A DNA stretch of 64,000 bases from Beroe forskalii (taxonomy: Eukaryota; Ctenophora; Nuda; Beroida; Beroidae). Location: contig WFMF01000423.1 in assembly GCA_011033025.1 (NCBI GenBank), positions 62,001-126,000 of the forward strand, written 5' to 3'. The position numbers and the translations under genes are program-made. Shown here piece by piece: positions 10,901 to 63,800 of this stretch (position 1 is its first letter; every line of letters starts with the position of its first letter). The notes under the pieces were generated by a model, which was not told the origin of the DNA, did not search any database, and saw only the letters and a list, made by a program, of their open reading frames with translations.

Positions 10901-13900
10901 TGCAAGGGCCCAAAAAATCGGTTTTTCGCCCACGAACCAGTTTGTGAACATTTTAGGGCATACGTTTATTGACAAGTTGTGTATAAACATGACCATTCCG
11001 ATTTGTTTGAGCTTAAAACGAAGTCTGTGCGACCTTCTTGAACCAAGTTACAAAAATCGCCCTAGCAAAGGTCCAAAAATCGGTTTTTCGCCCATAACTC
11101 GGTTTGTGAGCATTTTAGAGCATACGTTTATAAACAAGTTGTATAAAAACATGGTCATTGCAATTTGTTTGCGCCCAAAAAGAAGTCTCTACGACCTTCC
11201 TGGACCAAGTTACAAAAATCGCCCCAGCGATGGCTCGCAGGGACCCAAAAATCAGTTTTTCGCCCATAACTCGGTTTGTGAGCATTTTAGGGCATATGTT
11301 TATTACAAGTCGTATATAAAAATATAAACATGGCCATTGCGATTCTTTTGCGCCCAAAACGAAGTCTCTACGACCTTCCTGGACTGAGATACGAATTTTC
11401 ATAAGTCGCTCGGCTGCCGCTCAACTTAAAATCGATTTTTCGGCACTTTCCCCACGCTGGAAAGTCCTGGAAAGTTTCTAGATCGATTTTTCATGCAAAA
11501 AACCAGAGAAAAAATCCAAAATCGCTTGGTGTAGAATTTGTCCACATTTTCGTCCAATTTGAGGCAGATTTGACCTGACTAAGTAGCTGAACCTACTTGG
11601 TTTATTCATGAGCCATCTAATCTCTTTTTATTGCAGGAAAAGCGTATTAATTTGACAAGTAAATTACTCTGTTAATTCTCTTTCAGAATTGGGAGAAGTG
11701 GAACAAACCTGGAGTTAAGCCGCCATTCAACAAAGATGACGGATGTCATCTTAAAGCTGCGTTGCTCTCTGGACCGCCCGGTGTTGGCAAAACAACCACT
11801 GCTACAGTTTGCTCTAAGGTAACATACGTGTGCCATGAATTACAGGTTTGCAGGAGAAACTCCGAACGCTCGAACATTGTGCCAAATTTGGTCGGTACCA
11901 GCACCGTAGCACATGTTTTCCACTGTTTTGGAACGCGCTAAAACATTTTGATGATTGTACAACCGCGCAATGCGCGCGTAAACATGAAATTAGCTTTAAA
12001 AGGCGGCAACGGCTGCAGCTAGCAACAACTCAGCTGACAGATTTACTTGACAGTCAACTTAATCTTGATAGTTGATACCGTACTTTAAAAGAATAAATCA
12101 CTTCCAAAATAGGTCATTACAGGGCATGTTTAAGCGTTCAATGGCTTATCAGTTATCAAGATGAAAGATTAATAGCTTCCGTCTGTAGCCCCTACGGACT
12201 ATTGTTGACATTCAAGTGTCCATGCATTACCATTCCTGGTTCAGCTCAAGAACAGCATAGATCATTTCATCCGATAGGGTTTTTCCAGGGATGTTAATTC
12301 TACTGCAATTTTTAGATTGAAAAGAAATAGTAATGAGTTATCGGGGAGCTAGCTCAGATGGTAGAGCGCTCGCTTAGCATGCGAGAGGTACCGGGATCGA
12401 TGCCCGGGTTCTCCAGACTTCATTTTGTCGGCCAATCCCTCTAATAACAGGCCAAGGAGAAATTAAAAAGGAATCAACATTTTAAAAGAAATCAGGATTT
12501 TCACAAGCACACGGGTTTAATTCACCGAAAGATTTTTCGAAAATAGATAGTATATTTGCACATAGTACAGTCCAATTCACCAAAAGATCAGTTGGAGAAC
12601 CCGGGCATCGATCCCGGTACCTCTCGCATGCTAAGCGAGCGCTCTACCATCTGAGCTAGCTCCCCGATATCAACAATTTGTTTCGCCGGTCCCAGAATGC
12701 AGAGGCACAATGGGAATGGGCAATGGGCATTCTCAAGGCTACAATAATGATGGCAGCCATTTGAATCAATCTGACTCAGGTTTCGATCAACCATGTTTAG
12801 AAACTTGGAGGTAAATTATACTGAAATTGAGTGCAGAAAAATCAAACCAAAGTGGCTTGTCGGGGAGCTAGCTCAGATGGTAGAGCGCTCGCTTAGCATG
12901 CGAGAGGTACCGGGATCGATGCCCGGGTTCTCCAGTTGTACTTTTTCTTGTAGCCACAGAAAATTTTGAGCTGCCATGGACGACAGGATCGGGGCATTGG
13001 GGGCTTCAAAAAAGCAAAAAAGTTACTATCATGTTACAAGAGATTTCATTTTGTTTTGGCGCTATTAACAATTATTCTCAGAAGTTAAAAACTATTTCCC
13101 TTTCAGGAACTTGGGTTTTCCTACGTTGAACTGAACGCCAGCGACGCTCGGAACAAGAAATCAATAAAGGAGCATGTTGCTGATATCCTGAATAACCATA
13201 CTATTGCTGGTCTTACACAGAGAGGTACATTTGGTTCCCCTAGTTTCTGATTTTATATCAAATTTGTAGCTTTTTATTGAAATGATTCTCAGCTCTCCTC
13301 ATGTTTCATACCTAGAAAATCAAACCTTGGTTTTCAGGAGCAAAAGAGGACAAACACGTGTTGATAATGGACGAGGTGGATGGAATGGCAGGGAACGAGG
13401 ACCGAGGGGGCGTGGCCGAGCTGATCCAACTAATAAAGACTACTCGTATTCCTATCATCTGTATCTGCAATGATAGGTTTAAATCCAAGTCATATCTTCA
13501 TTTTGAGTGTGGGATTGGTGTGGCCAAGAAAATTTGGCCCCTTCAATTGTTTCCTTTTGTTTTACAAAAAGGCATTGTAGACATCAACATTTTCAGAGAC
13601 GTCAACAGACGTCAACATTTTCCGCACTGAAAAATCCGAAATTTCCCGAAAATTTGAGGGAGAATATGTTCTCATATTTGAGGGAGATTTCGCCAACGAT
13701 GTACGACTGCAGCATGAATTCAATATTTCCCCTCAGGAACCACCAGAAAATACGCAGTCTTGCGAACTACTGCTTTGATTTGCGGTTCTATAAGCCTCGA
13801 CTGGAACAAGTCAAAGGGGCCATGATGAGCATAGGTAAGATGAACATCAAATTTTCTCAAGATGCTGGTGATTCAGTAAGATAAATGGAAATGAGTTTTC

Positions 13901-16900
13901 ACAATATTTTTATAATTCATCACTTTTCCGCTAAATAAATACTTGAGAGATATGATTGATCGAATATATACATAACGTTTTCCCTCATCTTCACATCGAC
14001 ATAGTAGCATATATTTCCTTCTCTTCAGCCTTCAAAGAGGGTCTGAAAATCCCTCCTCCGGCCATGCAGAAGATAATAGAGGGAGCTAACAACGACATCC
14101 GGCAGATCCTGAACCACATCTGTATGTGGAGTGCGGGGAACAAGGCGGTCACCTTCGAGCAGGTAGGGATCGTTCACATATTACGTAATCACTTAGGGGG
14201 AGGGAGGGGGTTTCGGAATGATAACGTTACATGTTAATGTAACAAATACAACTACTGTAAACTTGATTACGAGGGGAAGGGGGAGGTCAAAATCGGCCAA
14301 AAATTGATTACGTAATATGTGAATGATCCCGTATTAGAATACCCGGGGGTTAGATTAACAAGTTAATCGAATTAACTTCCCCAAATGTCCCACAAACCAG
14401 TCCCAAACTCAAAAAAGTGAATTGGGACAGGGAAACCCCTGCTAGATCCCTGTGTAAATTGTGACCCAAAACAAGATCACTAATTATAATAAGCCCCCCC
14501 CCCCCTAATAATTATCAAAAGTGTGTAAACTGTTATCACGACATGAGCTCATAAAATTGTTTACTAAACACTGCACCATACTATCTACACCACTCCAATG
14601 GCGTAGCCAGATTTTTTCAAAACCTGTCGATGGTTTTATTTTGCTTGCCTCAAAGCTCTTATAATAACAAAATGAACAAAATTTTCGCAATCTCTGTCCG
14701 AAAAGGGGGGGGGGAGGCAGCCGCCTGTGTCGCCTTCCTCCTGGCTCCGCCCCTGTACCACTCTGCAGTAGCTTCACTCCCCCATTAAACAATGATAAAC
14801 CAAGGCAGCCGTAGGGTCAGAGCGCTCGGAGTCCACAGCCTCCCAAACCCACACCGCTTGACTTATGCGCAGGGGCGTAGCTAGGTTTCTAGAAAGGGGA
14901 CGGTGATTGACATTCAAACCTGTTGAATGCCATATTTTGCTTGGCTCCAAGCGCTCATCATAGAATTATTACAAACGTTTCACAATCTATGTCCGAAAGT
15001 GGGAGGCAGCCGCCTGTGTCGCCTTCCTCCTGGCTACGCCCCTGTACCACTTGGCAGTAGCTTCGCTCCCCCATTAAACAATGATAAACCAAGGCAACCG
15101 AGGGGCAGAGCGCTCAGCGTCCCTAACCCACACTGCTTCACTAATATGGGCAGGGGCGTAGCTAGGTTTCTAGAAAGGGGACGGTGGTTGACATTCAAAC
15201 CTGTTGAATGCCATATTTTGCTTGGCTCCAAGCTCTCATCTTAGAATTATTACAAAAGTGTCACAATCTCTGTCCGAAAGTGGGAGGTGGTTGCTTGCGT
15301 CGCCTTCCCCCTGGCACCACCCCAGCTTGTGCACACTCTCATGGGAGTTACAAAACAGGACTTCTAATTAGTGAAGAATTCGAATCATGAGTCTTGAGCG
15401 GTGACGTCATTTTAGTCCTCTCGAAAAATGAGGAAATTCCGCATTTTTCAAGGAATCTGATCTGAAAACACTTAAAAACATTTCTTTTCAAGCCGCAGAA
15501 TTTAATATCATATATGAATATGGGGAATATGAATATGGGGAAATATGAACATGACGTAATACAGGCAGGCCTGGTCACCGGTGTGCCTGCACCTAACTCA
15601 TAGCTCCCTGATTCACTCGGCAGAGAATAGGATTTTATAAGAGGGATACATATTAACTATGGTGCTGACCTAGTTGTGACATCAATATGGTTATGACATC
15701 GCTTTGGTTATGACATCACTATGGTTTTGACATCACTATGGTTACAGGCAGTCGAGGAAGCAGATAAAGCGAAGAAAGACATGCACCTCGGAATATTTGA
15801 CATTCCACGGCTCTTGTTCAGTAACAGCGAGGAGACAAGACGGTACACCTACGCAGACTATTCAGACTTGTTCTTCCAGGTACGTAGGGATAAGAGAAGA
15901 AACTGCATTCTCTGTACAGAATTACCTTTCAATTCACTGAACCTAGAATACCAACCTTAAAACAGTCAGCCAATAGGCTTTATTTGCGGGGTGCACCGTG
16001 CCTATTAGGCAATACAATACAATACAATACACTTTACATTTTACTGATTATCTCAGTCTAAATTTACTTCTTTCCTCAGGACTACCAGATGTCGCCCCTG
16101 TTCGTTCATGAGAACTACGTAAACAGTCAGCCAGCGCGAGCCCAGCGAAACAGCTACAAGACGCTGGCCACGCTGTCCAACGCTGCTGACAGTATCTGTT
16201 ACGGGGACTATGTTAACAGGGAGATACAGATGCAGAACTGGTCACTCCTCCCAACACAGGTAGAACTTTTTCCTCCGTGGTAAAATTTTAAAGAGTCAAT
16301 GATTTGTTGTATCGGAAATCCAGGTTATCACTCGCTTATTTGGCAGCCCTCTGTTAATATAATGCAATTTGAAATATTCACCCCAGAACGCCTATTTCAA
16401 CCCCCTATAAGAAGGGAATGTTTGCCAACTTATGCTTTATGTGGCAGCTGCACCCTGTGTTTGCACTGTTTGTTGGTATGCCGCCTTACCATTGATAACA
16501 GGCACCCGCCATGTTTTTAATTATATATTTTGTTATGTCAGTTTTCAGACATCTGTTTGCAATCATGAGCGGTTTATTTTTGAAACACCACACCTGATTA
16601 CACCAACATATATATACATTGTTTCTCGTTCCTGGAAATGAGTTACCAGTTGAAAGGAACAGCTGGCAATAAGGAGGATTTCTTACTTAGTATCAGTGTC
16701 TCGTAAGCCACGTGAAACATGGAAATACGTTCACAAAGACACACAAAGGCTGCGATCACGAATCATGATTATTATTCGGTCACGCATAATCATTTAATCT
16801 GTAGATGCCTTAGATATGGAAAATAAATATATCCTGATCAGTATACTGGTTTGAATATTATGGTTTCACTCCCCAGTTTCCACTAAAAGCTCCAATAAAA

Positions 16901-19900
16901 CCCTTTACTTTTTCAGGCCCATTCTCAGCCATTATGCCCGCCTTCTACATGCGTGGGGGCCTATCAGGAATGGTACAGTTCCCGCAAGTTCTGGGTCAAA
17001 CCAGCAAGAAAAACAGGTACAAACGCACGGGGCATGCATGAGCTGTAATCTTCCGGAGAATAGCAATTTTCTTCAGACTTATTCTTTAGAAAGTAATATT
17101 CTTCAGAGTATTTCTTAAGAAAACTTCATAAGAGTTCATAATATTTCTGCGAAGTATATTCTTTGAAATGATGTATTGGTTCAGATCTTTCGATCGGTTT
17201 TGAGGCTCCTTTGAGAGTTTACACATTGAAACACTGGAACAGGGGTACAAAGTATTAACATAATACACAACGTGTAATTAAGATGTGCAGGTACTACCCA
17301 GCGTGTTTTTAAGATGTGAAAGAGCTGCGCGTTGTGTGTACTGTGTAGTTAAGATGTGCAAGAGCTGCGCGCAGCGTGTACTGTGTAGTTAAGATGTGTA
17401 GGAGCTGCGCGCAGCGTGTACTGTGTAGTTAAGATGTGTAGGAGCTGCGCGCAGCGTGTACTGTGTAGTTAAGATGTGTAGGAGCTGCGCGCAGCGTGTA
17501 ATGTGTAGTTAAGATGCGCAGGAGCTGTGCGCAGCGTGTACTGTGTAGTTAAGATGTTTAAGAGCTGCGCGCAGCTCCACGGATATGACCTGTCAGTATT
17601 TTGTCATCAATTTGCTATTCTTAAGCTCGCGCTCGCGGTTCAACTTACGTTAGATATGATATACGCTCAGAATAAATAGGCGGTGGCAATAACGCCATGA
17701 ACATGTATATGTATAATGTATGTGTATGTTGTAAAATGTAAATTATGTTTATTCACTGAGCGCCCCTCCCCAGGTGCGACGGGCAGCTGCGGGATCTGCT
17801 GAATCACATGATTCTCCACGTTAGTACGGATAAGCGACAACTCGGCATGGAGTACCTGCCTCTACTGAAGAGGAGACTCGTCCAACCCCTTGTGGAGAAG
17901 GAATCAGAGTCTCTGATGATGTCTCTAATGATGTCTCTAATGATATCTCTAATCATGTCTCTAATCATGTCTCTAATCATGTCGTTAATCATGTCTCTAA
18001 TGATATGCCACTGGGAAATGAGAAATTATTTTGTGAAAATGAGCCGATTTGACTAAAAAATTTTATGCCCCATGCGATTATCTCTTATCTCTAATCAAGA
18101 CTAAAATGAATATTTTCTGGGCGGTGTTTTCAAATCTGTGAAAATACACTTCATGCCCACACGTAAAGAGGTCCCTGATCCACATCACTATAAGTGGTGA
18201 AACACCGAACATTCTCAGGAGTCAGAGGGGTAAGTGAGGTGATAGAGACCATGAACTGCTACGACCTACAGAGAGATGACTGGGATACTGTCATAGAACT
18301 GTCAACCTTCTCACACAGGCCTAACCCTGCATCCGACATCAACACCAAGACCAAGACAGCTTTCACAAGGTATTATTTATTATTATTTACAGTAGATGAT
18401 GAAAGATAAACAGACCCTTTGTAACTTTTTGTACCTTTTATGTAACTTTTTGTACTGCTTTGTACCTATTCAATTATTTTTCACCAATGTTCGTTCGTGA
18501 CTACATTCTATCGGCCCAGCCAGGCTGACGACCATTTCCTTTACCAACCTAGACTTCATTTGGTCAGGCATTGTTATAGTGGGCAAAGTGTGAAGGAGTG
18601 TTGCCATGGATTGATTAGTGTAGTGATGATAGAACAATTGCCTTCATTAAACTGCTGATTGTTCAATGTTCATTGATCAGTTTCGCAATTTGACTTAAAT
18701 ATGTAATGGCGATTCATCCTACCAAAAAAGTGCTCGCGAATCGCAGTATGAAATAATTCATGTGCTGACTCTTACCGGTGCATTTAATCATGTATCTTGG
18801 TGAATGGTAAAGACACAATGGGAATATTGCTGTGACTTTTCATCACGTCGATCAAGTAAGTTGATCAAATGAAAACGCGCACAATACACTTTTATGAAGA
18901 CATCCGCGCAAAAAAGCAAGCGCGCGTGATTGTGTGCCATTTTATTTGATCAGTTCATTCGATCGACGCGTAACGATGCAGGTGCCTTACTTTAGATATT
19001 ACGTAGTGTAACTCTGTAGAAAATAATATCTAAGAGCGGGTTAAGCTCAATTAGTAATCAATTATGAAATGTTAATCACCATTAATTGAGGATAACAAAT
19101 GGGAGTGGTTTTTAGTTAAGACGATTAGTAAAGATTATAACGGCCACCGACAATTGACAAACGTGAGACCCGGTGAGACATGCTTTGAGTTGTGCAGTGA
19201 AATCATTTCCGGAAATTGAGGATATTACCAATTTCAGTGGAGATATGACCTGCCGGTTTAGCAAATGAATTTCCGGGTTATCTCATCATTTAATCAATAA
19301 TGAACTAATGAAATCGCGAAGTGAAAAACTTTTAACCTGTCAAAAAAGTGTTATCCTGGCATCTCTTTAATAACCATCTCACACTTCTTTAATTTATTTT
19401 CACCTTATACTCCAAAATAATTTCCTCATAAAAATTTCCTCATTTCCGCAGGCAGTATAACAAGGATTGCCACATGAACCCTTACGCGACTGAAAGTACC
19501 GCCGTAAAGAAGAAGAAAGCAAAAGCCACGGCCGATGATAACTCAGGTAATCTGCTAAATCCAACCAAAGCGTGTGGTATAAGATCTTTAAATCACTAAA
19601 AAAAACCATTTCAAAAAAATGACGGAATAAAATTTTCCTGTACACAGCCAGGTATACTTTGATGGTTAAATAGTGGCAGTTGTCAGTTTTTCATCTGATG
19701 TCTCTTGATATTTGATTCTATTAGTTCAGCATATTCAGATTCTGTCCTCATGAAGTCGAGCGAGATTTTGAGTGTACATGTTAACTAAGAAGAAACTTGT
19801 AATTTTGTGCAGCTTTTGGGTGGAGAAATAGCATTTCAATTGGATTTGTGACCACTGCCGTCATCGAAAGTCAAACGTCAGATTTGGTTTAAATCAAATG

Positions 19901-45885: not shown

Positions 45886-48800
45886 TGGAAGATGGAACCA
45901 CTTATTCAGGAATATCATGTGGAGCTGACTTAGAGACATCTTCAAGTGGAGAAGTGAGTGTTCTCCTATTTTGATATTAACTTCATATGCTTTGTTTAGC
46001 ATCTGTTTCATAGGCCACATATGAATACAAATTTACCAATTTGGACTGAAGATGCCTGCACACCACTCATCTTGGTGTGACTCACTTGGATCCTGCTGCT
46101 CTCCACATTGGATTACCGAAAGGGATCATGTTGGTGTTCAAGTATGGAGTTGGAGAAAAGTCTTGCAGATTGATGTCTTGAAGAAAGATTTCTTTTTAAT
46201 TCAAAAAAAAAATTTACCAATTTCTTCTTCATTAACACAAACCTTTAATCCTATAGGTTGTATTTCAAACTGGTATGGTAGGATACAAAGAATCTCTCAC
46301 CGATCCAAGCTATGAATCTCAAATCCTTGTTTTGACATATCCTCTAATTGGAAATTATGGAATACCAGAACAAATTACTGATGAACATAATCTCTCCAAA
46401 TATTTTGAATCAGATGGAATCCATGCTGCAGGTATGATGAAAAAAAGTTGTGAAATTGTCTTTAGTTCATACTAAATGAACTAAATAGACACTGCACACA
46501 GGAAACATCTCCTTATTTAAAGCAATAAATAAACTGATTCTTCAACCTAGTTCCTTGAGGTAACATAATTACACAATGAAGAATGGAGATATACAGTTAG
46601 ATCAATTAAGGAATCACATCATTCCTCAAGGTGGTATGGTAACATCATCAATCAAGTCATAAATGTTGCCAAAGAAAACTTGATTAAGTTTAGAGGTTTG
46701 TAGAGCTGATATTTGAGGATCACTATTTGATGATACCTTCAGGACTGGTTGTTGCTAATTACAGTGAAGAAGCTAGCCACTGGTCATCTGTGGAAACTCT
46801 CTCTTCTTGGTTGATAAGGGAAAAGGTTCCTGCAATTACAGGTAGATGCAATATTCTTGTTGGAGTTCTGGCAGAATTGATGCTTTTATATTTTTTGGTA
46901 GGTACTTCCATTTTACTTTGGTGCAACAAAATTACCAGTTTGTACTGCATTGGTAAAATTCCAACTAATTTGGTAGTAGGTATACTTCTAGATATAACTA
47001 TAGGGCAGCATTGAGATGTAATATGAGTGCATATTGGACAAGGAGCAGCTCAGATAGTAAAGTATGCTTTAAAATGATGACCAATTGTTGCATTAGGTAT
47101 TCAATCGAAAAGTGGATTTGGCAAGAAAAAGTTTCCCACTGCATTTAAAGCATACATATAATTATATGCATGTAAACTAATCAAAATCCAACTGTCACTT
47201 TCATTTATGTCACTTTCATTTATGTCACCAATGATATATTTGTGATCTCCATGCTTGAATTTAATTTTCAGGGATTGATACAAGAAGTTTGACTAAGAAA
47301 ATCCGTGAGCATGGGACCATGTTGGGAAAAATCATATCAGCCAAAACAGATCCGACTACTGTAGAGTTTGTAAATCCTGAACTTGACAATCTTGTTGCTA
47401 AAGTATCATGTCCAACAGTGAAGACATATAACCGCGATAGTGAAGGTAAAATATCATGTACAGTAGGATTCAATGATAGTAATGATATCAACTTATATGC
47501 CTAAATATGTGCTTATTTTTCTATGCCAGAATTCAAAAAAGAAGAAAAAGTCTACATAACTCAGTATTATCCAATGAAACACTACCCCCAAATTTCCTTT
47601 TTGACACCTTCTCCACAGATAGTGAAGTGAGCATCCTCTGTGTAGACTGTGGTATCAAGACTAATCAGATCAGGTGTTTCATTGAGAGAGGGGCCTGTGT
47701 AACGGTTGTGCCATGGAATATGGACCTTTCTCTTATCCTCCCCAAATTCGATGGATTGTTTATCAGTAATGGTCCAGGAGATCCAGCACTCTGCACTGTC
47801 CTTATTGAGCGGTGAGTTGACATGAATGTGATGTAAAGTTCAGTTGATTACAGTAAGCGTTTCTTGATGATTTGAAAACTTGAAGCGTAGATTTGCAATA
47901 GCTGTTTCACATCAGACTTACACTCCAAACTTCTATACATGACACAAATATATAATTAATAACAATCTGATCCCCGTTTATAGGTTGTCTGAGATACTAT
48001 CACGTGACAACGTGCCACCCACATTTGGTATCTGCATGGGATCCCAAATCGTTGGTCTGAGTGTGGGGTGTCAGATATACAAGTTAAAGTATGGTAATAG
48101 GGGCCACAACCAGCCATGTACCCATGTCGAAACGAAGCGATGCTTTATAACGAGTCAGAATCATGGCTTTGCTCTCGACGTTTCCAACCTCAATCCGGGT
48201 TAGAATTGCTAGGCGTTTGTGTGTGTCCAACTGCATGCAGCAGCTGGGTATCTTTACTTTCTTATTTTTCAGTTCGATTAAAAATTTATTGACTGATAAT
48301 TCATCAGTTCATTGCATTCATAATCATCTCAGTACCGTTTTCTAATTCAAAGTTTAATTATAAATTTTCCAAATTTTTAGGTATTACTTTGAGTCTGACA
48401 AATTTGAAATTGTCTCTCAATAAAGCAATTACTCATGGATGGGTTCAAATAATTAGCAGCAATTCTACAAAACTATCTACACAATAGAGTCTCACTGTTA
48501 TACTTAGTCAATCACCGAAAATATTATTCAACACTATGAAAACACTAGCTAGCAGTCTTTTGACACCAAAGTTCAATGTCATGCCCTCTCTGCCCTAACT
48601 ATCGATTCTCCCAAATCACGCCATCTTTCAATTAACAGTAATAGCCAGTAGCAAACCAGTTGACGCTCAAGTACTTCTTAGCGAAGAACTCGCTTAGCTG
48701 GTGCCTGTAAGACAGTCGCTTCATCGGATGGAATCCAGTGATGTACGTTTTGAACTTGGTGGTAGAGGCCTCAGACACGACGTTTCCACCCCCAATAAGA

Positions 48801-51800
48801 GCTGCTATCGCATAGAACTCTCCTCTGTTGTGAATATCTATCTCCATCTCGTTGAAACTAAGCGAGGATGTGATGATAGGTGTCTTCTTGAACCCGCACT
48901 CACTGATGTCTATAGTAGCTTCAGTGAACTGCCAGTCACTACCAAACCCGTCTATCCCGGCTAAGTTCACCTGCTGGTAGACTCCTGAGGGGGTCTGTGC
49001 GGTGGACCCGGCACAGGTGAAGATGCAGTCCGGATGGGCATCCTGATCATGGGAGTGGGTTATGGTGGAAGAGGTGACAGCAAACACAGTCCCTGGGAGG
49101 AGGAAGAAGAGGAGACAAAACATCGTACGAGATGGATTCTGTCTTACGGCTCTCTTTGGATTATATGACGAAATATGGAGGAAAATAGGCAACAAGAAGT
49201 CGTGTACGTCTATGGTAAATAGTTGAGATGGAAAAAATCAATGGAGGAATTGTCTGGGATTCACTTGTGTAACACCTGCTTCCACCCCTGTCACAGCAAA
49301 AAATGGAAAACGGATTAATTCTAAGACAATCGATTTCAGCAGCCAGATGGTTTTTCCTCATGATGTTTCTTCTCTTCGTGTGATTTGTAGCACTTTTTGA
49401 CATTTCACACTACAGGTACTATCGTACTACACTACACCCAAAAACATTTCTACAGGAAGACTTACACTCAATTTAATAATGATAAGAGTGTTCTGAATAA
49501 TAATATTACTATCAGGAATTACGAGTTACGATACAACATAGATTAGGTATATATGTATCAATCTAACAATTATGTCTTGAACGTGACATTTTTCGGCAAT
49601 TAATTCAGCACACTTACGCTTCACAGAAATAATATAATCTTTCGTGATGAATAAGTTCCCTACTCCCCAGAATTCGAGGAGCTGTTTGTGAACGAGAACG
49701 ACGGAACGAACGAAGGTCTGATCCACAAAACAAAACCCATCATGTCCGTACAGTTCCACCCTGAGGCCATGGCCGGTCCTCTGGACACCATGTTCCTCTT
49801 TGATGTGTTCCTCGATCACGTCAAACAAGTCAAAGAAGGTAAGACATAGAGGGTCAATCAATCTGTGATTGAGTCTGATGTCATATACAGATCTCAGATC
49901 TGAATTGACGAGACCAAACCGTCTCGTTTTTTGTGCGTGGAGGTAAAGTAATTGTATTTTGAATCTTGAGCTCCTCATGCAACAAATAGAATTTGAAGCG
50001 TGTGAATTTATCTCTTTTGATTGTAACTGACAACTGTACCCGATAATGATTTTGAACATCCCACTACCCACATCTCAAGGTGAAGTAACCATGACATTGA
50101 AGGAGCGTCTTACACACAAACTCTTGCAAAAGAGCGGACTCTCCTGTCTCACAACACAAGTTATAAAAGCACCCTACAAAGTCCTAATTCTGGGGTCTGG
50201 GGGGTTGTCAATAGGACAGGCTGGAGAGTTTGATTACTCGGGGTCGCAGGTGAGAAATATGGGGAGTTTTTCACTGTGATAGAACTTATAATATACCATC
50301 ACAGTTATTATCACACAGTTATTATCTGCTAACAAAAAAAGGGCAAATTTGAACTTAATCTTCGTGCAATTTATAATCATAATGTCATAATAAGTGTAAA
50401 GTGAAGCTTTTGTGATATTTCTATGAGATATAAGACGGTTTATTGTATCGGCTGCAGGCTATCAAAGCTCTGAAAGAAGAAGGTCTCCACACGGTGCTGA
50501 TAAACCCTAACGTGGCTACTGTACAGACCAGCAAGGGCCTGGCAGACCGAGTTTACTTCCTACCAATCACCACGCACTACGTTACTCAGGTGAGGCTGGT
50601 AGCATTTATCTCTTGCACTTTATGACAGAGCACCCTGAAAATCACTTCTGCTTTACAGTTACACCGCTTCTCATTGACACCGCTTTTTTGACACCACTTC
50701 TCTTTGACACCACTTTCCCTTGACATCACTCTATCTTGACACCAATTATCATTGACACCACTTCCCCTTTGACATCTCTTTTATTTGACACCACTTCTCC
50801 TTGACACCACTTATCATTGGCACCACTTCTATTTGACACCACGTCTCCTTGGCACCACTTCTTATTGGTACCACTTCTCATTAACACCACTTCTAATTGA
50901 CACCACTTTCCCTTGACACCACTTTCTCTTGACACTTATTTTCCTTGACACCACTGCTCCTTGACACTACTTCCCCTTGACACCGCTTCTCATTGACACT
51001 ACTTCCCATTGTCTAGTTGACACCACTTCTCCTTGACACCACTTCTCCTTGACACCACTTATCATTGGCACCACTTATCATTGGCACCACTTTTATTTGA
51101 CACCACGTCTCCTTGAGACTACTTCTCATTGGTACCACTTCTCATTAACACCACTTCTAACTGACACCACTCCTCTTTGATAACCACTTTCTCTTGACAC
51201 TTATTTTCCTTGACACCACTGCTCCTTGACACCACTTTCCCTTGACATCACTTCTCATTGACACCACTTCTCATTAGCAAGTTGACACCGCTCGTCCTTG
51301 ACACCAGGTGATAGAATCTGAGCGGCCGGATGGTATACTCCTGTCATTTGGTGGACAGACAGCACTGAACTGTGGGGTGGAGCTTTACAGGCAGGGAATT
51401 CTTGAGACCTACAACGTGGCTGTGTTGGGTAAACCTTGATGTGCTTTGATAATATCTTAAATACTTAAATATTCAATTCCTTTAATGAGCAGACTTGAGG
51501 CGTTATCTGTTCTGCAGAGGTCTGGGGTGCAACGTATGGCTGCAAATTGAACTGACAACTCTTTTGCTCCCCAGTGAGAGCGTATTTTTCATTGGATAAA
51601 TCATGCTAATAAATCAGCCATGAAAGCATGAACCACTAGTCACTACATTTCATGTTCATTAACACTTCATTTCCGCAGATTATATTTTAATTAATTATCT
51701 TATCTTGAAACCTTCCGTCACATGGTCGTTATGAATTGGAAATTGGCTCCAGTGTCATACAATAAATTTTGTTGATTTTTCAAAATCGGAAAAATTGTTC

Positions 51801-54800
51801 AAAATATTATAGATGATTAATTAATGTATCATTTGAAACTCACTTACTCGTATCATACCAGTGACATTTGACAACGTTTGAAATTGACGCAGTAAATTGG
51901 GAGTTGGGCCAAGAGCAATGAAATATTGATTCTTATTTCTTATGTCTAGAAGACGGGGTCTTGCTTTCGCAGTTTCATTGACGCAGTTTCACACATCATC
52001 AGCTAAGTTAGGAAAACATCAAAGCAAATGTATAGAAAACCACCTAAGTCTTGAATGAGATGACACTATTCCCCTGGCAGGAACCCCGATACCGAGTATA
52101 ATAGCAACAGAGGATCGGAAGGAGTTTGCTGAGAGACTGGCTGAGATAGATGAGAAAGTAGCCCCCAGTGACACTGCAACCAACTTGCAAGATGTGAGTG
52201 GGATGGGTCACATATTCGAGTGCGGGTTTGGGAGGACCGGATAGGTCGAAAAATTTTGATAAAAGGGAATTCTGTTGGTGGGATGATTCAATATTTTAGG
52301 ATGCATTAGTTGTTTAGTTATAGAAATAACAAAATAATCCCGCATCCCCTATCTTGTGTTCCTATAAACCCTATAAATTTGTTATTTTCAACCCTCAGGT
52401 TTTGAGTATAGGGAAGAAGTTGGGTTTCCCTGTTATGGTGCGTACTGCATACGCTCTGGGAGGTTTAGGCAGTGGGTTTGCTAGTAACGAGGAGGAGCTG
52501 GAGGAGCTAGTCAAAACACCCCTTGCCAGTGGCACTCAGGTAGATCTACTTGATCAGAATATCGTAGACAGAGCCGTAATTGTAAAAGTTCTGCTTCGTT
52601 CGTGCATCATGTTTGACCCCATCATCTTGCACTTTTCTATAAACCGTGAAAATGACGTCACACCTATTTCAGGTTATCATAGACTTAGAAACGGCCCAAA
52701 ACACCCCTTGCCAGTGGCACTCGTGACAATGACGTCACCCTCCTAACTGATTTCAGGTTATCATAGACAAGAGTCTGAAGGGGTGGAAGGAGGTGGAGTA
52801 TGAGGTGGTGAGGGACGCCTATGATAACTGTATTGTGGTGTGTAACATGGAGAATGTCGACCCTCTCGGTGGGTACACATCGTATAGACCCTTTACGAAT
52901 TTCACGATTTTCTTTAAAAACTAAAAAAGACACATTATATCCGTAGGTATAGGTTGTATTTGATCGATCTGATGGTTATACCCTGACACGATCGAAGAAA
53001 TTAGCAGTCTTTACGTTGAATTGAAAGTTTTAAATTTACGGACAGCAATTGTGATCTGATCTTTGTAGCATTTAATTTTTCAAGTTACCTCTTTCAGCTT
53101 CAAATTATGATCATTCTGAATCTAATGAAGGTTCATGTAAGTGTTCATCACACTGATCAACGCCTTGAAAGCCTGTCTATTATGTTAGAAACATGCACGC
53201 TTCGTTGCATCGGGTTCTGCCTTTCATTGCATAGGTCAATAAAACTGCGGTGTATTGTACCATGCCCTTTTCCTTAATTGAATAATTGACTATGTACAGT
53301 TACATTATACTATTGGGTGATCCAAAATGAACGTTACAAATTTAACGCGCTGTAACTTTGGTTCATGGTTGTGTTTGGAGTTTCTTAATGAAACTTAGGG
53401 ATTCATAGGTAATGTACGATACAATTTTGCACCAACAATTTGAAATATCTACATCAATATATCGCCCACGCATTGTCCGTAATATCCTGAAAGTTTCATC
53501 AAGATTGCTAAAAAAACCTCGGAGATATGCGCCTTTTTGCATCGCAGAAAGTGTACATGAAGCACAATTAAGGGTGTAACCTAACACACCCCCTCTTTTC
53601 CAGGTATCCACACGGGTGAGAGTATCGTGGTGGCTCCCTCCCAAACCCTGACAAACGTGGAGTACAACATGCTGCGTAGTGTTGCCATCAAGGTCGTCAG
53701 ACATCTGGGTGTCGTCGGAGAGTGTAACATCCAGTACGCGCTCAACCCCCACTCCTTACAGGTTAAACTCCCCACAGGGTTTCAATAAAACCCTCAATCT
53801 TACAGGTTTCAATAAAACCATAAAACCCTCACTCCTTACAGGTTTCAATAAAACCTTCACTCTTTACAGGTTTCAATCAAACCCTCACTGCCAACAGGTT
53901 TCAATCAAACCCTCACTCCTTACAGGACACATGTTTTAATAAAACCATCCCTCGTGACAGGTTTTGAACCCTCATTCCTTACAGGACACAGAAGTTGTTT
54001 TTTAAGTTTTTCAAAATTGTTTGAAAGTTTCCGACATCGTTTTTAATTAAGAGATTAAGGATCTTCATTAATCACCGACAGCTGTTATTAATAAACTGCT
54101 GTTGAAATTTGATTAACTGCGTAGCAGCGACTGTCTGACTTCTTGTTTCAACATTTATCTGAATGTAACCTTGAGTGTGAAATTATCGTCACGACGTCAC
54201 TCATTCACTCCTATATATTACAGTATTACATCATAGAAGTGAACGCTCGTCTATCCAGAAGTTCAGCACTTGCCAGTAAAGCTACGGGTTACCCCTTGGC
54301 ATACGTAGCAGCTAAACTAGCTCTTCTCTACCAGTTGCCAGCTCTCAAAAACAAGGTTAGCATTCAAAAAGATTTGTAAGATTAAGTAGATATCCAACAA
54401 TTATCAAGAATTATTATTAGGAGTTATTCAGAGTTTCAATACAAAATTGAAAAACAGATTGACGGGTCTCTAGACACGGTTATAAAATGTCACGCGACTT
54501 TTTATTGCCCGGAAACTTTTTAAGTCTAACTGGTAATAATTAAGCTGAGTCTAACTGATTTTATTAAACTCACTACCACGAAAATCATGCAGGTCACTAA
54601 CAAGACTACGGCATGTTTTGAGCCTAGTCTGGATTACTGCGTTGTTAAAATCCCAAGATGGGACCTGGGAAAGTTCCATCATGTCAGCAAAAAGGTATTC
54701 ATTTTATGATGTTATGTCCAGATAATTGTTGTACCTATGCTGTTGAAATTGCTGTTCATTGTCGTCAACTAAGTGCAATAACCTTCCTTGAAAGCTTAAA

Positions 54801-57800
54801 CAAGATGATTACGTCATTAAACTGGACTTTTACCACTTCTAGGCACATACATTACTCACTCCCAATCACCCAATTTAATAACTTAGTAAAAGGTATGTCT
54901 CCTTCCAGATCGGTAGTTCCATGAAAAGTGTGGGGGAGGTGATGTCGATAGGCCGTACCTTTGAGGAGGCCCTACAGAAAGCCCTGAGGATGGTCGATAA
55001 CTCTACTCTCGGATTCTACGGAGACACCTGCATTGTCAACGAGGAGGTCGGTGCGCAGTTATTTGTGCAGTTATTTATGGGGAAATTTGTGCAGTTATAA
55101 GCTGAATTGAAACTTCACCACAATATCCATCACCTAGAAGCATTGACTCATTGAGCACATGGCAGGAACCCTGGTCCTGCCATGTGCTCATGTGCCTTAA
55201 ATGCTTTAAACTTTTAAAGCACACATGCTTTAATTCTTTCGAAATCCAGACCATGTGACAAGCAATCACTCGAACTCTATTCACTTAAGGAATCCAGGTC
55301 ATGTGAAATTGTGGCTATCCAACCACTTGAACTCTATTTACCGATGGTTTTCCAGGAGCTCCGAGACCCCTCTGACAAGCGGATATTCATGATAGCACAA
55401 GCGATATCTAATGGGTACAACGTGGACGAGCTGAACGGACTGACTAACATAGACAAGTGGTTCCTTATCAAGATGCAAAACATAATCGTGCAACAGAAGA
55501 ACTTGGAGGTGAGACGATCTGTGCAGATCTGATACGGTAGATTTTATCTAATTTAATCTAAACTGAAATATGGGGTAAAGCTACTGCATAGATATAAGGT
55601 ACTCAGTACTCACAAGAAATCGTCACCAATTCGCCACTGTGAGTCCCGATAATGACGTCACCCACTCACCAATCTGCTCCCTGATAATGACGTCATCCCC
55701 ACAGAGTTACCGAGGTAGACTGAGCAGCATCCCTCGGAGCCTCCTCCTGACGGCGAAGCAGCTGGGATTCAGTGACAAGCAGATAGCTCATTTTGTGGGG
55801 AGTACAGGTAGGAGTGCAAACATTCCTGGCTAAAAACCCACGCACGAGAAATAGGCGGTTAGGATGACGTCATTATCATAGTGTGATGTGGTGATTGATT
55901 ACGTTGAACCGCCTATTTCTCGCGTGCGGCGTTTAGTTTACATGGCTCATAGGGCCTTATTTGTTTATTTGTGACCCTATAACCCTATAATACGTTGGCT
56001 TTCGTTTGTGCTCCACCCTATAACCCTTAAATTGAATAGAAGTTTTAATAGATGGGCTCGTTTATTCTCCAAATGGTAATCTTAAATAATAAATACTCAA
56101 GAGATTGAAAATTAAACGAAATAACTAATTCTAAAATCTTGTGATTATCGTAGTGTGCAACTGAGTATGAACCTTGAAACCCTTCCGCAGAGATTGCAGT
56201 CCGTGGAGTGAGGCTTGGTTTCGAGCTGCGACCCCGTGTTAAGCAGATAGACACTGTGGCTGCAGAGTACCCTGCTGAGACCAACTACCTCTACCTCACC
56301 TACAACGGCAGTGACGACGACGTGGAGCTTCATCAGGGTAGGTGGCATTCTGCCAAAATAATACCAGGGCAGTGACATTCTGCCAGAATAATACCAATTA
56401 CCAGGGTATGTGGCATTCTGCCAAAATAATACTGCAGGGTATGTGGCATTCTGCCAAAATAATACCTCACTTGTAACCAGGGTATGTGGTATTCTGCCAA
56501 AATAATACATTCTCACTTGTAACCAGGGTATGTGGTATTCTGCCAAAATAATACATTCTCACTTGTAACAAGGGTATGTGGCATTCTGCCAAAGTAATAC
56601 CTTCTCAGTTGTAACCAGGGTATGTGGCATTCTGCCAAAATTATACATTCTCACTTGTAACCAGGGTATGTGGCATTCTGCCAAAATAATACCATGGTAT
56701 GTGGCATTCTGCCAAAATAATTATAACTTCTCGCTTGTAAGCTTGTAGAGCCGTGCACGTATCGCCCGACCCGTGGGAGGGCGTTGCACAGCCCTCAAAG
56801 TTAGCTATTATTCGTTGTAATCCTCTAAAGATTGTAGTAGTTACTAAGGGAAACAAGAAATTTGGTTGATACTTTTTGAGCTCCTTTCGGTGACAGTTCG
56901 AACTGCAGTTTTGTGCGCGCGGCGTAAGTATGCGCGGCGTAAAGACAGATAATTTTACATTTCTGTACGGCGGGTAAACTTACGCCGCGCGCACAAAACT
57001 GCAGTTCGAATTGCCACTGTTTTACGAAACGTTCATGATGTTTTCAGGTGGTGCACACATGGTCCTGGGTAGCGGGGTGTATCGCATTGGTTCCAGTGTG
57101 GAGTTTGACTGGTGTGCCGTCAGATGCACTCAGGAGCTCAGACAAGTTAGTGTGGGAGAGAGCATGTAATTTATAGTTCAGTATTTTCATATTTTGGTTT
57201 GATAATTCGACTTGAAATTAATCAAGAATTTCCAGCTTGTATTTCAAAAACATTGAAAAGTTGAAAACTACCTGCAAAAACGGGTATTTTCCTCGTTTCC
57301 TGCCATACCAGCTCCTGCTGAATACAGTACTTACCTATACAAGTATTCAACCCCTCCCTTTTCAGTTGGGCTGCAAGACTATCATGGTAAACTACAACCC
57401 TGAGACCGTGTCCACTGACTACGACATGTGTGACAGGCTGTACTTCGAGGAAATCAGCTTCGAGGTAATTGTTATATTTTTCATTTAAATTTCTGGAAAT
57501 CTATTAATTTTTGACTACCTAATCAAAGAGCTATTCTATTATAGTACAGTGTAGATCAACACCTGAACTTGATACGTGAAATGAGTTCACTTTGCACTTT
57601 CTTCCAAATGTCGCCTCAGAAGCTCAGATCACTTTACCACCAGAAACCTCACATCAGAAATGTCAGATTGGTTCATTTTGTTTACCTGAATTAATATTTG
57701 TTTACCTGTCGCAGGTGGTTATGGATGTGTACGAGGCAGAGAACCCTGTGGGTGTTATAGTGTCTATGGGAGGGCAGCTGCCTAACAACATAGCCCTGCA

Positions 57801-60800
57801 TCTCCACAGGGCAGGGGTCAATGTGCTGGGAACCGAGCCTACCATGATAGATAGCGCCGAGAACAGGTTAGAAGCGTTTCTGTTCGGTTTTAATACCGGA
57901 TCCTTCCTCATCTTATTCTAAATTATACGGGGGGGGCCAACCTCGAAAAACCCCGGGTGGATATAAAAATTGGCAAATGGGGGTTTAATTTTTCGGGGTT
58001 AATGAGGGTTAAAGGAGGCTAAACTGATAAAAAAATAGCCGTTTTTCGGTCGTAAAATTCGAATTTTTCTCAAAATGGTACTACTTTAGTTGTGGATTCT
58101 CGGCTCTTCTCTCAAATGGTACCATATTTGTTGAGGATTTTTGGCACTTTTCTGAAATGGTACCATTTTTGTTGAGGATATTCGACCCTTTTCTGAAATG
58201 GTACCATTTTTGTTGAGGAATTTTGGCCCTTTTCTGAAATGGTACCATTTTTGTTGACGATTTTCGACCCTAATCTGAAATGGTACCATTTTTGTTTAGG
58301 ATTTTCAACCCTTTTCTGAAATGGTACCATTTTTGCTGGAAATTTTTTCTGGGCACTTTTCTGAAATGGTACCATTTTTGTTGACGATTTTCGACCCTTT
58401 TCTTAAATGGTACCATTTTTGTTGACAATTTTCGACCCTTATCTGAAATGGTACCATTTTTGTTTAGGATTTTCAACCCTTTTCTGAAATGGTACCATTT
58501 TTGTTGAGGATTTTTGATGAAGATTTTTGGCACTTCTCGGAAATGGTACCATTTTTTGTTGACGATTTTCGACCCTTTTCTGAAATGGTACCATTTTTGT
58601 TGACGATTTTCGACCCTAATCTGAAATGGTACCATTTTTGTTGAGGATTTTCAACCCTTTTCTGAAATGGTACCATTTTTGCTGGAGATTTTTGGCACTT
58701 TTCGGAAATGGTACCATAATTTTGTTGAGGAATTTTGGCCCTTTTCTGAAATGGTACCATTTTTGTTGAGGATTTTCGATCCTAATCTGAAATGGTACCA
58801 TTTTTGTTGAGGATATTCGACCCTAATCTGAAATGGTACCATTTTTGTTGAGGATTTTCAAACCTTTTCTGAAATGGTACCATTTTTGCTGGAGATTTTT
58901 GGCACTTTTCGGAAATGGTACCATAATTTTTGTTGAGGAATTTTGGCCCTTTTCTGAAATGGTACCATTTTTGTTGAGGATTTTCGACCCTAATCTGAAA
59001 TGGTACCATTTTTGTTGAGGATATTCGACCCTAATCTGAAATGGTACCATTTTTGTTGAGGATTTTCAAACCTTTTCTGAAATGGTACCATTTTTGCTGA
59101 AAATTTTTGGCACTTTTCGAAAATGGTACCATTTTTGTTGAGGATTTTTGAACCTTTTCTTATTAATGGTACCATTTTTTGTTGAGAAATTTTAAAATTT
59201 ATTCAGAAACAGTACCATTTTATAGAAAATTTTCCGAATTTTTTTCAAATGGTACCACTTTTGATGATGATTTTCGACCCATTTCTGAAATGGTACCATT
59301 TTAGTTGTGGATTTTCGGCCTTATTTTGAAATGGTACCCATTTAAACCCCCCAAAACCCCAAAGTGGATATAAAAAAGCCAAATAGGGGTTTAATTTTTA
59401 GGGGTTTATTGGGGGTTTTTCGAGGTTGCCCCCCCCCCTATACGTTTTCCTTGAGGCTTGAAACACAGCCCTCTATCGCAGTATAAAACCTTATTGGCCT
59501 TTGTTTAGCCGGCCCTTAATAAGGACAAAAACGACTTTGACCCCTCCGTCAGGTTTAAGTTCTCCCGGATGCTGGACTGGATGAACATCGCGCAGCCCCA
59601 GTGGAAGGAGTTGACGGACCTGGAGTCCGCTGCAGAGTTCGCGGCGCTCGTGGGATATCCGGTGCTGGTACGACCCTCCTACGTGCTGTCCGGTGCAGCC
59701 ATGTCTATCTGCCACACGTTAGTTGGGGGCCATGTCTATCTGCCACACGTTAGTTGGGGCCATGTCTATCTGCCACACGTTAGTTGGGGGCCATGTCTAT
59801 CTGTCACACGTTAGTTGGGGGCCATGTCTATCTGCCACACGTTAGTCGGGGGCCATGTCTATCTGCCACACGTTAGTTGGGGCCATGTCTATCTGCCACA
59901 CGTTAGTCGGGGGCCATGTCTATCTGCCACACGTTAGTTGGGGGCCATGTCTATCTGCCACACGTTAGTTGGGGCCATGTCTATCTGCCACACGTTAGTT
60001 GGGGGCCATGTCTATCTGCCACACGTTAGTTGGGGCCATGTCTATCTGCCACACGTTAGTTGGGGGCCATGTCTATCTGCCACACGTTAGTTGGGGCCAT
60101 GTCTATCTGCCACACGTTAGTTGGGGGCCATGTCTATCTGCCACACGTTAGTTGGGGGTTAGGAGCAAGCTCCGGAACCCAGGGGCGGCTCGTTGGGGTG
60201 GCTGGAATGGTAACTTGCCCGTACCAAGTCTGGACGGAGTCAGGGGGTTTCGGGGTGGCCTCCAAACCGGCGGAGGCCTACGCCGTTGAGCCGTTGGCGT
60301 ACATGCATAATGCGATCTATAGCTATTCTAGCTGTTTCTATTCCAGGGATGATGGATTGAAGGAGTACCTGGGCAAAGCAGCTGCTCTATCACCCGATCA
60401 CCCTGTAGTCATCAGCAAATTCATCATGCAGGCCAAGGTAATAAGACATGAATAATTGAAATATTGTACTTACTTCATCATGTCAAATGTGAAAAGATCT
60501 TGAAGCTGGAACCAAGAATGTTCTCCAGACTTGACAAAGATACCATCGCATCATGGCTGGTTGGAGCATTGGATAATTTGCGAATAAGTAGGAACTTGAT
60601 ACGAGATGCGACAGTGGAGATTGACGAGTTAAAAGTGGAAGTTGACGAGCTGCAGAAACAGGCGCTAGGAGACAAGTCAATGATTATTGAGCTGCAGCGG
60701 GAAGTGATAGAAGGCAAGAAGGAGGTGATGGAAGGAAGCAAGGAGCAGATCAAACAGGTCCAGTCATCGCTGCAGACGGAGATAAAGAGTTATAGAGATG

Positions 60801-63800
60801 CTGTCTGTTTGCAGAAGGAGGGTTCTAAGTGTGATATGGATCAAATCAGAGTGCAAGATGTGAAGGAAGCAGTAAAAGTCGTGACAGAAGATAGCACCAG
60901 GAGAAAGAACATCATGATTTTTGGACTTGAAGAGAAGGGTAGCCTCAAGACTAGTGTGACTGGTCTGTTGAAGCAGCTTGGTGAACAGCCACATATCGAG
61001 AACTGTGAACGGATTGGGCGAACTGAGCCGAATTCAACGCCCAAGCCTGTTAAGGTAACATTGAGCAGCGCCAGTTTTGTGGAGACCACGTTGAGGAGAT
61101 CTCATCTGTTACGAGGAAACAAGGGATACGACTCAGTGTACATCGGACCAGACAGATCTGAAGAAGAGAGGAAAGCTCACAGGGAACTTGTTCAAAATCT
61201 GAGGAGGAAAATCAACGAGGAGCCGGAGAGTTATCACACCATCAGAAAGGATCGGATCATCAGCTTCCCGAAGACGAAGATCAGTCCTCAATATCATCAC
61301 CCGGCTACAAAAGAAGGAACATCACCTCCACCCCCAAGATAGACTTTTTCACCAGCGTCACTGACAATTGGCATTTTAGACTTGACATTAAGTTTATTTT
61401 CGGAGAGTGGACTTTTCCATTTGTTTTCAAGGGGATATGTTTTTGCTACTCTGCCTTATGCATATTTTTCAGGGTCTGATTTTTAATTTCAATTTATTAT
61501 TTTTTAGGTAATCATTTATTTGATTACCTAACGGTCTGACATTACAGTATTTTATGTAATAAGACTGTAATTCTTATTCTTATTCTTATTCTGCAAAATC
61601 ATGAAATCAGGTAAAATCATGAAATATTGTAATTGATTACAATAGCATTCCGGAATCTTTTACTCACAGTGCTCGACTTTCTCTATGAATAGGAGCTGAT
61701 CCTACTAGAAATAAAACAATCTGTTCACCAACTCCAAGTTTCATGCAATATATTGGGAATCCTGCAGTGAGAAATATTGTACTTACTTACTTACGTCATT
61801 ACACGTATTGTGGTCTTAGTAAATTATTGTACACGCTACACACGATCATATGAACCGCACTGTTGTGGTTTTCGCATGCAAAATAATAAATATTCAATAA
61901 ACTAATAAAAAAGTTGTTATATTATCATGGATCTTGTGAAGTTCAATTGTGGCACATTGCCATAATATGCAATCGATGAAAAGATTTAGCGAAGTAGGCT
62001 TACAGCATGATTTTAGGAAATTCTTCTGGATTATAATGCCCTACTACTACTACAAAAAATCATAATGCACCATCATTGATCAATGGTGGTGCATTCTTAC
62101 GGCACTTCACCAATCACCACTCATATGACACACCGTCATGTTCAGGAGATAGATGTGGACGCTGTGGCGTGCAATGGCGAGGTACTCGTTATGGCTATCT
62201 CAGAACACATTGAGAACGCTGGAGTGCACTCTGGTGACGCTACACTCGTACTACCGCCCCAGGTGATTTCAAAACTTGAAAAGATTTGATAAAGCTCAGT
62301 AAATAGCAAAATGCGTTTGTAGCATCCACTCAGGGAGAAAATTTTCTTGGGATTGTATCATTTTGTTAATTTTCATGATAGAATGAAGAAATGAGTGAGA
62401 TTTTGAACTTTTCAAAGTCAATAAGGAATGACTTATATTTTCGCAGGACATGAACACTGAAACACTCAGTAAAATACGGAAAGTATGTCGCTCCGTGGGC
62501 CACGCCCTGCGGGTCTCGGGTCCCTTCAACCTCCAAATAATAGCGAAGGAGAACAACCTGAAAGTTATCGAGTGCAATGTCCGGGTCTCTCGATCCTTCC
62601 CTTTCGTCTCTAAGACGCTCGGAGTTGACTTTGTAGCTCTAGCTACAAGGGTCTTGCTGGGAATGCCTTGTGAACCTGTGTCTCCTGACCCGATGGAAAA
62701 CTCTCCGAGGATCGGAATGAAGGTAAACCTGAGTTTCATACTGTAATACCTATTCAGAGCTGGACATATTACTTGAAGTCTGCAAAACCAATCGGTCGTT
62801 TTAATTCCCGCGTTTGACTTCTTGAATGCATGTACAGTATTCCATTCTTTCATTTCCGTGTACCACTTGTGCAAGTCTCATGGGAATTGGGATGCCTCTG
62901 ACTTTCTCAACCCCAACCACATTTCATGCCAGGTAGCTCAATTCTCCTTCTCCCGTCTTGCTGGTGCCGATGCCCTTCTTGGAGTAGACATGGCATCTAC
63001 TGGTGAGGTAGCAGCTTTTGGTACTGACATGTACACAGCCTACCTCAAAGCCCTGCTTAGCTCCGGGTTCAAACTGCCCAAGAAGAACATTCTCCTTTCC
63101 ATCGGAAGTTATAAGGTAGGAAGATTTGGGCTCTGAGGAAACTAGAAAGTAGAACCTTTTACTTTTCGAGGGAACCGTAAGAAATTATTTTAGATAGCTA
63201 GGCCACTCCCAATAACTGACAGTTGAGTAGATATTATTATGTTGATTTACATCTCTACACAGCCTTCACAAAATATTAACTTATTAACAAAATTATCTTT
63301 ACTGTACTTTTTTATCACTATTGTCCGGATTCTAATATCCAACTTAAGTTCAACTTTACGCTTTATACACATCACATCAGAGCAAGCAAGAGATGTTAGA
63401 GAGTGTGAGAAGGCTCCACGCTATGGGATTCACGCTCTACGGGTCTCGTGGTACGGCTGATTTCTACAACGAGCACGGCATAACGGTACGTGATATGCGT
63501 CGCTAGATCTAAACACATAAATATAGCAGTTTTATTGGTAATGAAATAATGTAAAATAAGCGATCTGATCTCTATTTGATAAATGTTATCGTTATGATAT
63601 CAATTTATTTATCAATCATAAAATTAAAAGGCCAATTAACTCTGAATACTTCAGTAATAATTTTGAAAGACTGAATTATGATACTTCAGATCACTTCAAT
63701 TTCGTGGCCGTTCAGTGAGAATGGCCAACAGGGAGACAAAAATATCCCAAGCATTGGAGATTACCTTGCTACTCAGAAATTCGACCTTGTCATCAACCTT

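Follow-up and report, generated by a model that had tools for sequence, protein, structure and literature searches.

The 64,000-nucleotide stretch analysed here (G000:C496:62001-126000, referred to as the window; from an assembly of 216 Mb in 1134 contigs) carries a CAD gene on the plus strand, from approximately 45.8 kb to the end of the window, in which minisatellites extend from the ends of exons 14, 20 and 24 into the introns that follow. As had been claimed in the original prediction, the end of the exon together with the 5' splice site is the founding unit of each array, and the units hold 16, 5 and 20 coding nucleotides, respectively. The association of arrays with exon-intron junctions was found to recur in other genes (loci L019-L028) and in a second copy of CAD, and it is likely that these are minisatellites of the type called mirages in amphioxus, that is, the outcome of ordinary tandem duplication which is tolerated across a splice site and is then followed by minisatellite expansion.

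The first 25 exons of CAD were modelled as 1168 codons with no stops, and Pfam analysis of 752 amino acids of CAD and 267 amino acids of RFC1, also in the window, identified carbamoyl-phosphate synthase, glutamine amidotransferase and RFC1-type domains. Arrays were called with Tandem Repeats Finder (TRF) and were counted if they had a score of at least 50 and a unit of at most 100 bp (see Table 1 for coordinates). At exon 14 the TRF array starts 23 nucleotides past the donor, yet positions 53746-53764 (16 exonic nucleotides plus GTT) align with the downstream copies. Overlapping TRF rows begin 5 nucleotides inside exon 20, where 4-5 exonic nucleotides are shared with the unit, while at exon 24 the TRF array starts 20 nucleotides inside the exon and the unit is GCCATGTCTATCTGCCACAC/GTTAGTTGGGG, consisting of 20 coding nucleotides and 11 intron nucleotides. 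Counted by motif, there are 14 extra donor copies at exon 24, 7 at exon 20 (approximately 9 with variants, by eye) and 7 at exon 14; the earlier figures were approximately 7, 10 and 15 for exons 14, 20 and 24.

Table 1. Exons and tandem arrays of CAD and RFC1 (window positions; a slash marks the exon-intron junction)
Feature	Position	Strand	Description	Basis
CAD exon 14	53604..53761	+	final 16 nt, CCCCCACTCCTTACAG, belong to the unit as its exonic share; donor at 53762	clean-frame gene model, copy alignment
Exon 14 donor-spanning array	53746..53992	+	~8 copies, period mostly 28	TRF, sequence, copy alignment
CAD exon 20	56191..56337	+	donor at 56338	gene model
Exon 20 donor-spanning array, CAGG/GTATGTGGCATTCTGCCAAAATAATAC	56333..56721	+	~10 copies, 8 by exact motif	TRF, sequence
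CAD exon 24	59553..59717	+	donor at 59718	gene model
Exon 24 donor-spanning array	59698..60158	+	31-bp unit, 15 copies	TRF, sequence
RFC1 12-bp array, x7.8	17909..18001	+	starts at inferred weak donor GT; exon ends at 17908	TRF
RFC1 17-bp array, x4.2	15673..15744	+	ends 3 nt before acceptor; exon starts at 15748	TRF
CAD intron 9 16-bp array (TTGACACCACT...)	50661..51307	+	most of the intron, up to the acceptor	TRF, sequence
CAD intron 23 41-bp array	58065..59343	+	mid-intron, away from junctions; a counter-example	TRF

An inverted copy of CAD (copy B) is located on the minus strand of the same contig, from approximately 62.2 to 22 kb of C496, and was compared with the copy in the window (copy A). 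Over the 25 exons the two copies differ at 88 of 3504 nucleotides and 7 of 1168 amino acids (dN 0.0026, dS 0.109), no gap occurs in any of the 25 exon alignments, and when the exon ends are projected onto copy B a GT is present in 24 of 25 donors and an AG in 23 of 24 acceptors. The arrays, whose exact copy numbers are those of the assembly and are provisional, number 15 copies in A and approximately 61 in B at exon 24, approximately 10 and 3 at exon 20, approximately 8 and 2 at exon 14, and approximately 2 (by eye) and 13 in intron 18. Length instability is thus seen at exons 14, 20 and 24, between two loci on one contig. With 2 units where A has approximately 8, copy B at exon 14 looks like an array still close to its founding, of which A has the expanded form, and a 35-bp duplication (x2.0) across a donor of copy B, outside the window and with 16 exonic nucleotides included, is an early-stage case. 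No counterpart to the 41-bp array of intron 23 of copy A was found in intron 23 of copy B. An assembly artefact was considered as the source of the arrays and is disfavoured by the common units at unequal numbers in the two CAD copies, as well as by similar arrays on other contigs.

Similarity between the CAD copies (C496 approximately 62.2-45.2 kb, minus strand, and window 45.6-64 kb) stops after approximately residue 1437 of the probe; the match ends at C496:126301, just past the exon aligned with probe residues 1412-1437. The dihydroorotase and aspartate transcarbamoylase parts were matched on C496 only at 22-45 kb, beside copy B. The coding parts of both copies look constrained (dN/dS approximately 0.02), though the C-terminal domains were matched beside B only. 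An antisense frame with a good coding score lies in CAD intron 6 (window 48637-49092, minus strand) and is also present in copy B, and a similar-looking frame is found at C496:30019-29669. Intron 25 contains a coding-like reading frame (window 60656-61054), which we take to resemble a retroelement open reading frame.

Junctions in other genes were sampled prospectively in 61.5 kb of sequence (L019-L031) near Pfam-profile matches to the myosin head and DNA polymerase B domains (78 and 8 matches, respectively), of which part of the regions was sampled, picked by the exon density of the match positions. L030 was chosen after an array had been noticed at the end of the adjacent L023 and was counted for its first exon alone, joined to L023, while L031 and L032 stand outside the counts. 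Gene models for the sampled loci were built with an exon-chaining script trained on CAD, followed by hand curation without RNA; the junctions of L019 exon 10 and of L021 were placed with the array in view, and the introns at L020 6088-7156 and L026 817-2475 may each contain a missed exon. The final set comprised 119 introns (72 prospective, 34 from the window and 13 from the 3' part of CAD copy B) and 42 arrays, which were taken as independent, though one L024 intron holds four. Two rows were excluded, namely an RFC1 array with a 281-bp unit (above the 100-bp limit) and an array at an acceptor of L029 (18-bp unit, x3.6, with its end 2 nucleotides short of the acceptor), for which the upstream exon of the intron lies outside the sequence used.

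In L021 a 69-bp unit present 32 times crosses an acceptor and includes approximately 38 exonic nucleotides, and a 37-bp unit present three times crosses a donor with 22 exonic nucleotides, the latter being an early-stage case. Acceptors are also crossed in L022 (34 bp x8, 6 exonic nucleotides) and, again at an early stage, in L028 (44 bp x2, 16 exonic nucleotides), and a donor is crossed in L019 (22 bp x2.2, 4 exonic nucleotides). At least 4 exonic nucleotides are shared with the unit at donors of CAD copy A (exons 20 and 24), copy B, L019 and L021, and at acceptors of L021, L022 and L028. Further arrays with an end at most 10 nucleotides from a junction were found in L020, L022, L024, L027 and L028, and the junction-near prospective arrays as a whole include both donors and acceptors. 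No counterpart to the L021 acceptor array was found in contig C177, where the match begins only at the downstream 13-bp array; this neighbouring array has 72 copies in L021 and 8.5 in C177.

Two observations were made at neighbouring or sampled loci. Several G-rich arrays with GGGGTCAGCAG-like units extend over approximately 2.4 kb of L032 (C177:163501-169500, minus strand), and L023 contains similar adjacent myosin exons (1397-1592 and 1711-1876, sense strand), which are possibly alternative.

RFC1 exon 18 had been listed as a case with a 12-bp unit, and the array does begin at the inferred donor, but this donor (GA/GTCTCT, at 17909) is weak and was placed from the reading frame and from a visual comparison with human RFC1, and approximately 5 exonic nucleotides are shared with the unit (by eye), which makes it the weakest case. 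The further claim that arrays run into acceptors stands for the 17-bp RFC1 array; the array in CAD intron 9, called by TRF at 50661-51275 and continuing by eye to about -2 of the acceptor, seems from its sequence to be made of a dispersed unit rather than one that arose at the junction, because an 11-nucleotide core of its 16-bp unit recurs in L022 and L026. The array in CAD intron 23 has 30 copies, and its core motif, AAATGGTACCATTT, is also present in a myosin intron (L024).

Proximity to junctions was compared with two null models. In null 1 the array is placed anywhere within its own intron. In null 2 the founding duplication is uniform and may straddle a junction, the intron is restored to its pre-expansion length, and exon sharing is expected per array at 2(u-7)/(L0+u-1), where u is the unit length and L0 the length of the intron before expansion. 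Of the two models null 2 is the fairer, because one good splice site survives in position when a duplication crosses a junction. Under null 1, and without the 100-bp unit limit, 10 of 23 prospective arrays lay at most 10 nucleotides from a junction compared to 2.75 expected (P = 2e-5), as did 5 of 15 arrays in the window compared to 1.03 expected (P = 0.002). Under null 2 the corresponding expectations were 5.4 for the same 10 of 23 prospective arrays (P = 0.009), 6.6 for 11 of 28 when copy B of CAD was added (P = 0.02) and 2.4 for 5 of 14 in the window alone (P = 0.07). Sharing of at least 4 exonic nucleotides was observed in 8 of 42 arrays compared to 4.4 expected (P = 0.055), and among arrays with a score of at least 100 exon sharing was observed in 7 of 22 compared to 3.4 expected (P = 0.03).

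Short words were also counted genome-wide. The donor word AGGTAAGT has 8045 occurrences and forms 492 tandem pairs and 321 triples at a spacing of 12-40 nucleotides, while its reversal has 10531 occurrences, 193 pairs and 49 triples at the same spacing. Taking tandem runs as pairs minus triples gives an estimated 171 runs for the word and 144 for the reversal, a 1.55-fold ratio per occurrence. Array density is 4.0 per 10 kb in the sampled introns compared to 2.15 for the whole of contig C496; the word ratio is no larger than this difference, and a junction effect is therefore not needed to account for it. A second word, AGGTGAGT, gave 1433 tandem pairs against 6008 for its reversal, which is the opposite direction, although the surplus of the reversal probably comes from a dispersed repeat family.

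Under the mirage-type explanation, a tandem duplication of a short segment (22-69 bp among the exon-sharing arrays of this study) would by chance span an exon-intron edge, and would be tolerated in that an intact splice site stays beside the exon while the extra copy and its spare site go into the intron. Slippage or unequal exchange would subsequently lengthen and shorten the array, as in other minisatellites, with selection holding the exon-side copy. The likely state of the CAD genes is that the exon-proximal donor is used and that the remaining copies are intronic. Crowding at exon edges would then arise mostly because introns are short and tandem duplications frequent, and a junction-specific mutation process is not required. 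The number of exon-sharing arrays also comes fairly near the one predicted for uniform founders that may straddle.

Several results weigh against so simple an account. Over all sets, 16 of 42 arrays lay at most 10 nucleotides from a junction compared to 9.0 expected under null 2 (P = 0.004), as did 13 of 22 arrays with a score of at least 100 (6.4 expected, P = 0.001). When array edges were extended by rule, 16 of 42 lay at most 5 nucleotides from a junction (8.1 expected, P = 0.001) and 9 of 42 shared exonic sequence (4.6 expected, P = 0.025). The residual excess under null 2 is thus approximately 1.8-fold and unexplained. In addition, copy B has no GT at the donor of intron 4 and no AG at the acceptor of intron 24; it may be spliced differently at these introns, shifted splicing and damage both being possible. 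The original view, that arrays sit at junctions far more often than if placed at random, therefore holds in full only against null 1, and is weakened to a modest bias when the founding duplication is allowed to straddle the junction.

One way to account for this bias is uniform birth with unequal persistence, in which the selected exon-side copy acts as a template that keeps junction arrays homogeneous, longer and detectable. The runs of AGGTAAGT are longer than those of the control (492 pairs in approximately 171 runs, compared to 193 in approximately 144), and the residual excess is clearer for junction-touching than for exon-sharing arrays. However, the longer mean leans on a few huge arrays (on C122, C181 and C248, among the first 100 places listed), and the 13-bp array of L021 (x72) and the 41-bp array of CAD intron 23 (x30), both away from junctions, are among the largest intronic arrays. 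This explanation seems rather unlikely.

A hot spot of birth, by which junctions would tandem-duplicate more than other intron sequence (through co-transcriptional structures or AG/GT microhomology, for example), we regard as improbable. It is favoured by the strong excess of prospective arrays under null 1, by the smaller excess under the straddling null and by the higher number of AGGTAAGT runs per occurrence. Exon-sharing arrays alone, however, show no clear excess, the word ratio does not rise above the difference in array density between introns and contig, and the pairs of AGGTGAGT point the other way, probably on account of the dispersed repeat family.

That the introns themselves are nascent, created when an exon segment with AGGT was duplicated in tandem, is very improbable. 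Intron 4 of L028, intron 4 of L021 and CAD intron 9 are nearly all array, but the units at CAD exons 14, 20 and 24 do not carry the head of the downstream exon, and do not supply the donor and acceptor of a new intron, a separate acceptor being present outside the array (by eye); these introns therefore seem to have been present before the repeats arose in them. That backup splice sites were selected for, which had been raised as a possible cause, is hardly credible: every extra copy does bring a donor-like site (15 to approximately 61 at CAD exon 24), but of the 88 donor copies lying downstream in the three arrays of A and B, 0 give an extension that is both in frame and without a stop, so that they are no useful spare sites, and copy number differs widely between A and B, while acceptor-side and mid-intron arrays exist as well.

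The phenomenon is real, recurs and already has a name; its host lineage here is probably a new one, and a modest unexplained bias to junctions is left. It can be suggested, tentatively, that exon edges seed minisatellites, the birth or persistence of arrays being biased approximately two-fold to junctions genome-wide and the exon-side copy, which is under selection, serving as a lasting template; if so, mirages would be a general animal route of splice-site duplication and not an amphioxus oddity. The findings widen a little-discussed class of repeat: single junctions carry dozens of copies, unrelated genes of the same genome are affected (CAD and several myosins), and the host is probably not amphioxus. 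The fairer null, with straddling founders and pre-expansion introns, sets the bar for any claim of junction-specific duplication. Donors and acceptors in such dense tandem series are suited to studies of spliceosome choice between identical sites, and new introns or exons may come from them.

Outside the CAD gene, three tRNA-Ala (AGC) genes lie a short way ahead of the RFC1 exon at 13107 (window 12343-12415, 12593-12665, inverted, and 12862-12934), and two large arrays with 172- and 162-bp units, which match each other in opposite orientation, occupy window 9133-11381.

A COX1 fragment on a contig of 13,339 bases (TGA read as tryptophan) is identical to mammalian COX1 at 108 of 218 positions. 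Amphioxus COX1 is far closer to that of vertebrates, and because the fragment is only approximately 50% identical to the mammalian protein the host is probably not amphioxus.

It had been supposed that no named phenomenon matches these arrays, but the mirages of amphioxus, as they are described in PMC3087553 and PMC3902484, match them closely. In these accounts mirages are minisatellite-like tandem duplications over either exon-intron boundary, are proposed as a source of new introns (PMC3087553), and reportedly leave splicing intact (PMC3087553, PMC3902484). The globin mirage has 6 and 3 units between haplotypes, with splicing apparently undisturbed (PMC3087553); a PGBD5 mirage was added, with Adh and TnC cited (PMC3902484), and mirages of Adh3, for which somatic polymorphism was reported, are attributed to Canestro 2002 (as cited in PMC3087553 and PMC3902484). 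Under that name, no report from outside amphioxus was found among the matches listed from the open-access literature searched, nor was anything relevant found there for Mnemiopsis and minisatellites; the portion consulted of an account of earthworm intronic minisatellites (PMC12783039) yielded nothing on junction-spanning units. Internal tandem repeats at exon-intron boundaries are described for human genes in segmental duplications (PMC2812944), and intron gain is described in which a tandem duplication over an intron-exon boundary copies the splice signals and gives a new intron (PMC4974935).

The likeness to amphioxus mirages, as far as these are described, lies in boundary-spanning units (here at CAD exons 14, 20 and 24, in L019, L022, L028 and CAD copy B, and twice in L021), in copies that carry splice signals, in variable copy number, and in both 5' and 3' boundaries being affected among the exon-sharing arrays. 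The differences are that up to approximately 61 copies are found here compared to 6 and 3 in one globin gene, that frequency was here set against two nulls, and that the arrays are described here from genomic sequence. The human boundary repeats, according to the portion of PMC2812944 consulted, are similar in having units of 30 bp on average, some of them at boundaries, and variation between paralogs, but there novel introns and alternative transcripts are described, whereas here the paralogous exons align without gaps. The AGGT tandem-duplication route of intron gain, as outlined in its source, likewise involves a boundary-crossing tandem duplication that copies splice signals; there a new intron results, whereas here a pre-existing intron seemingly gains repeats.

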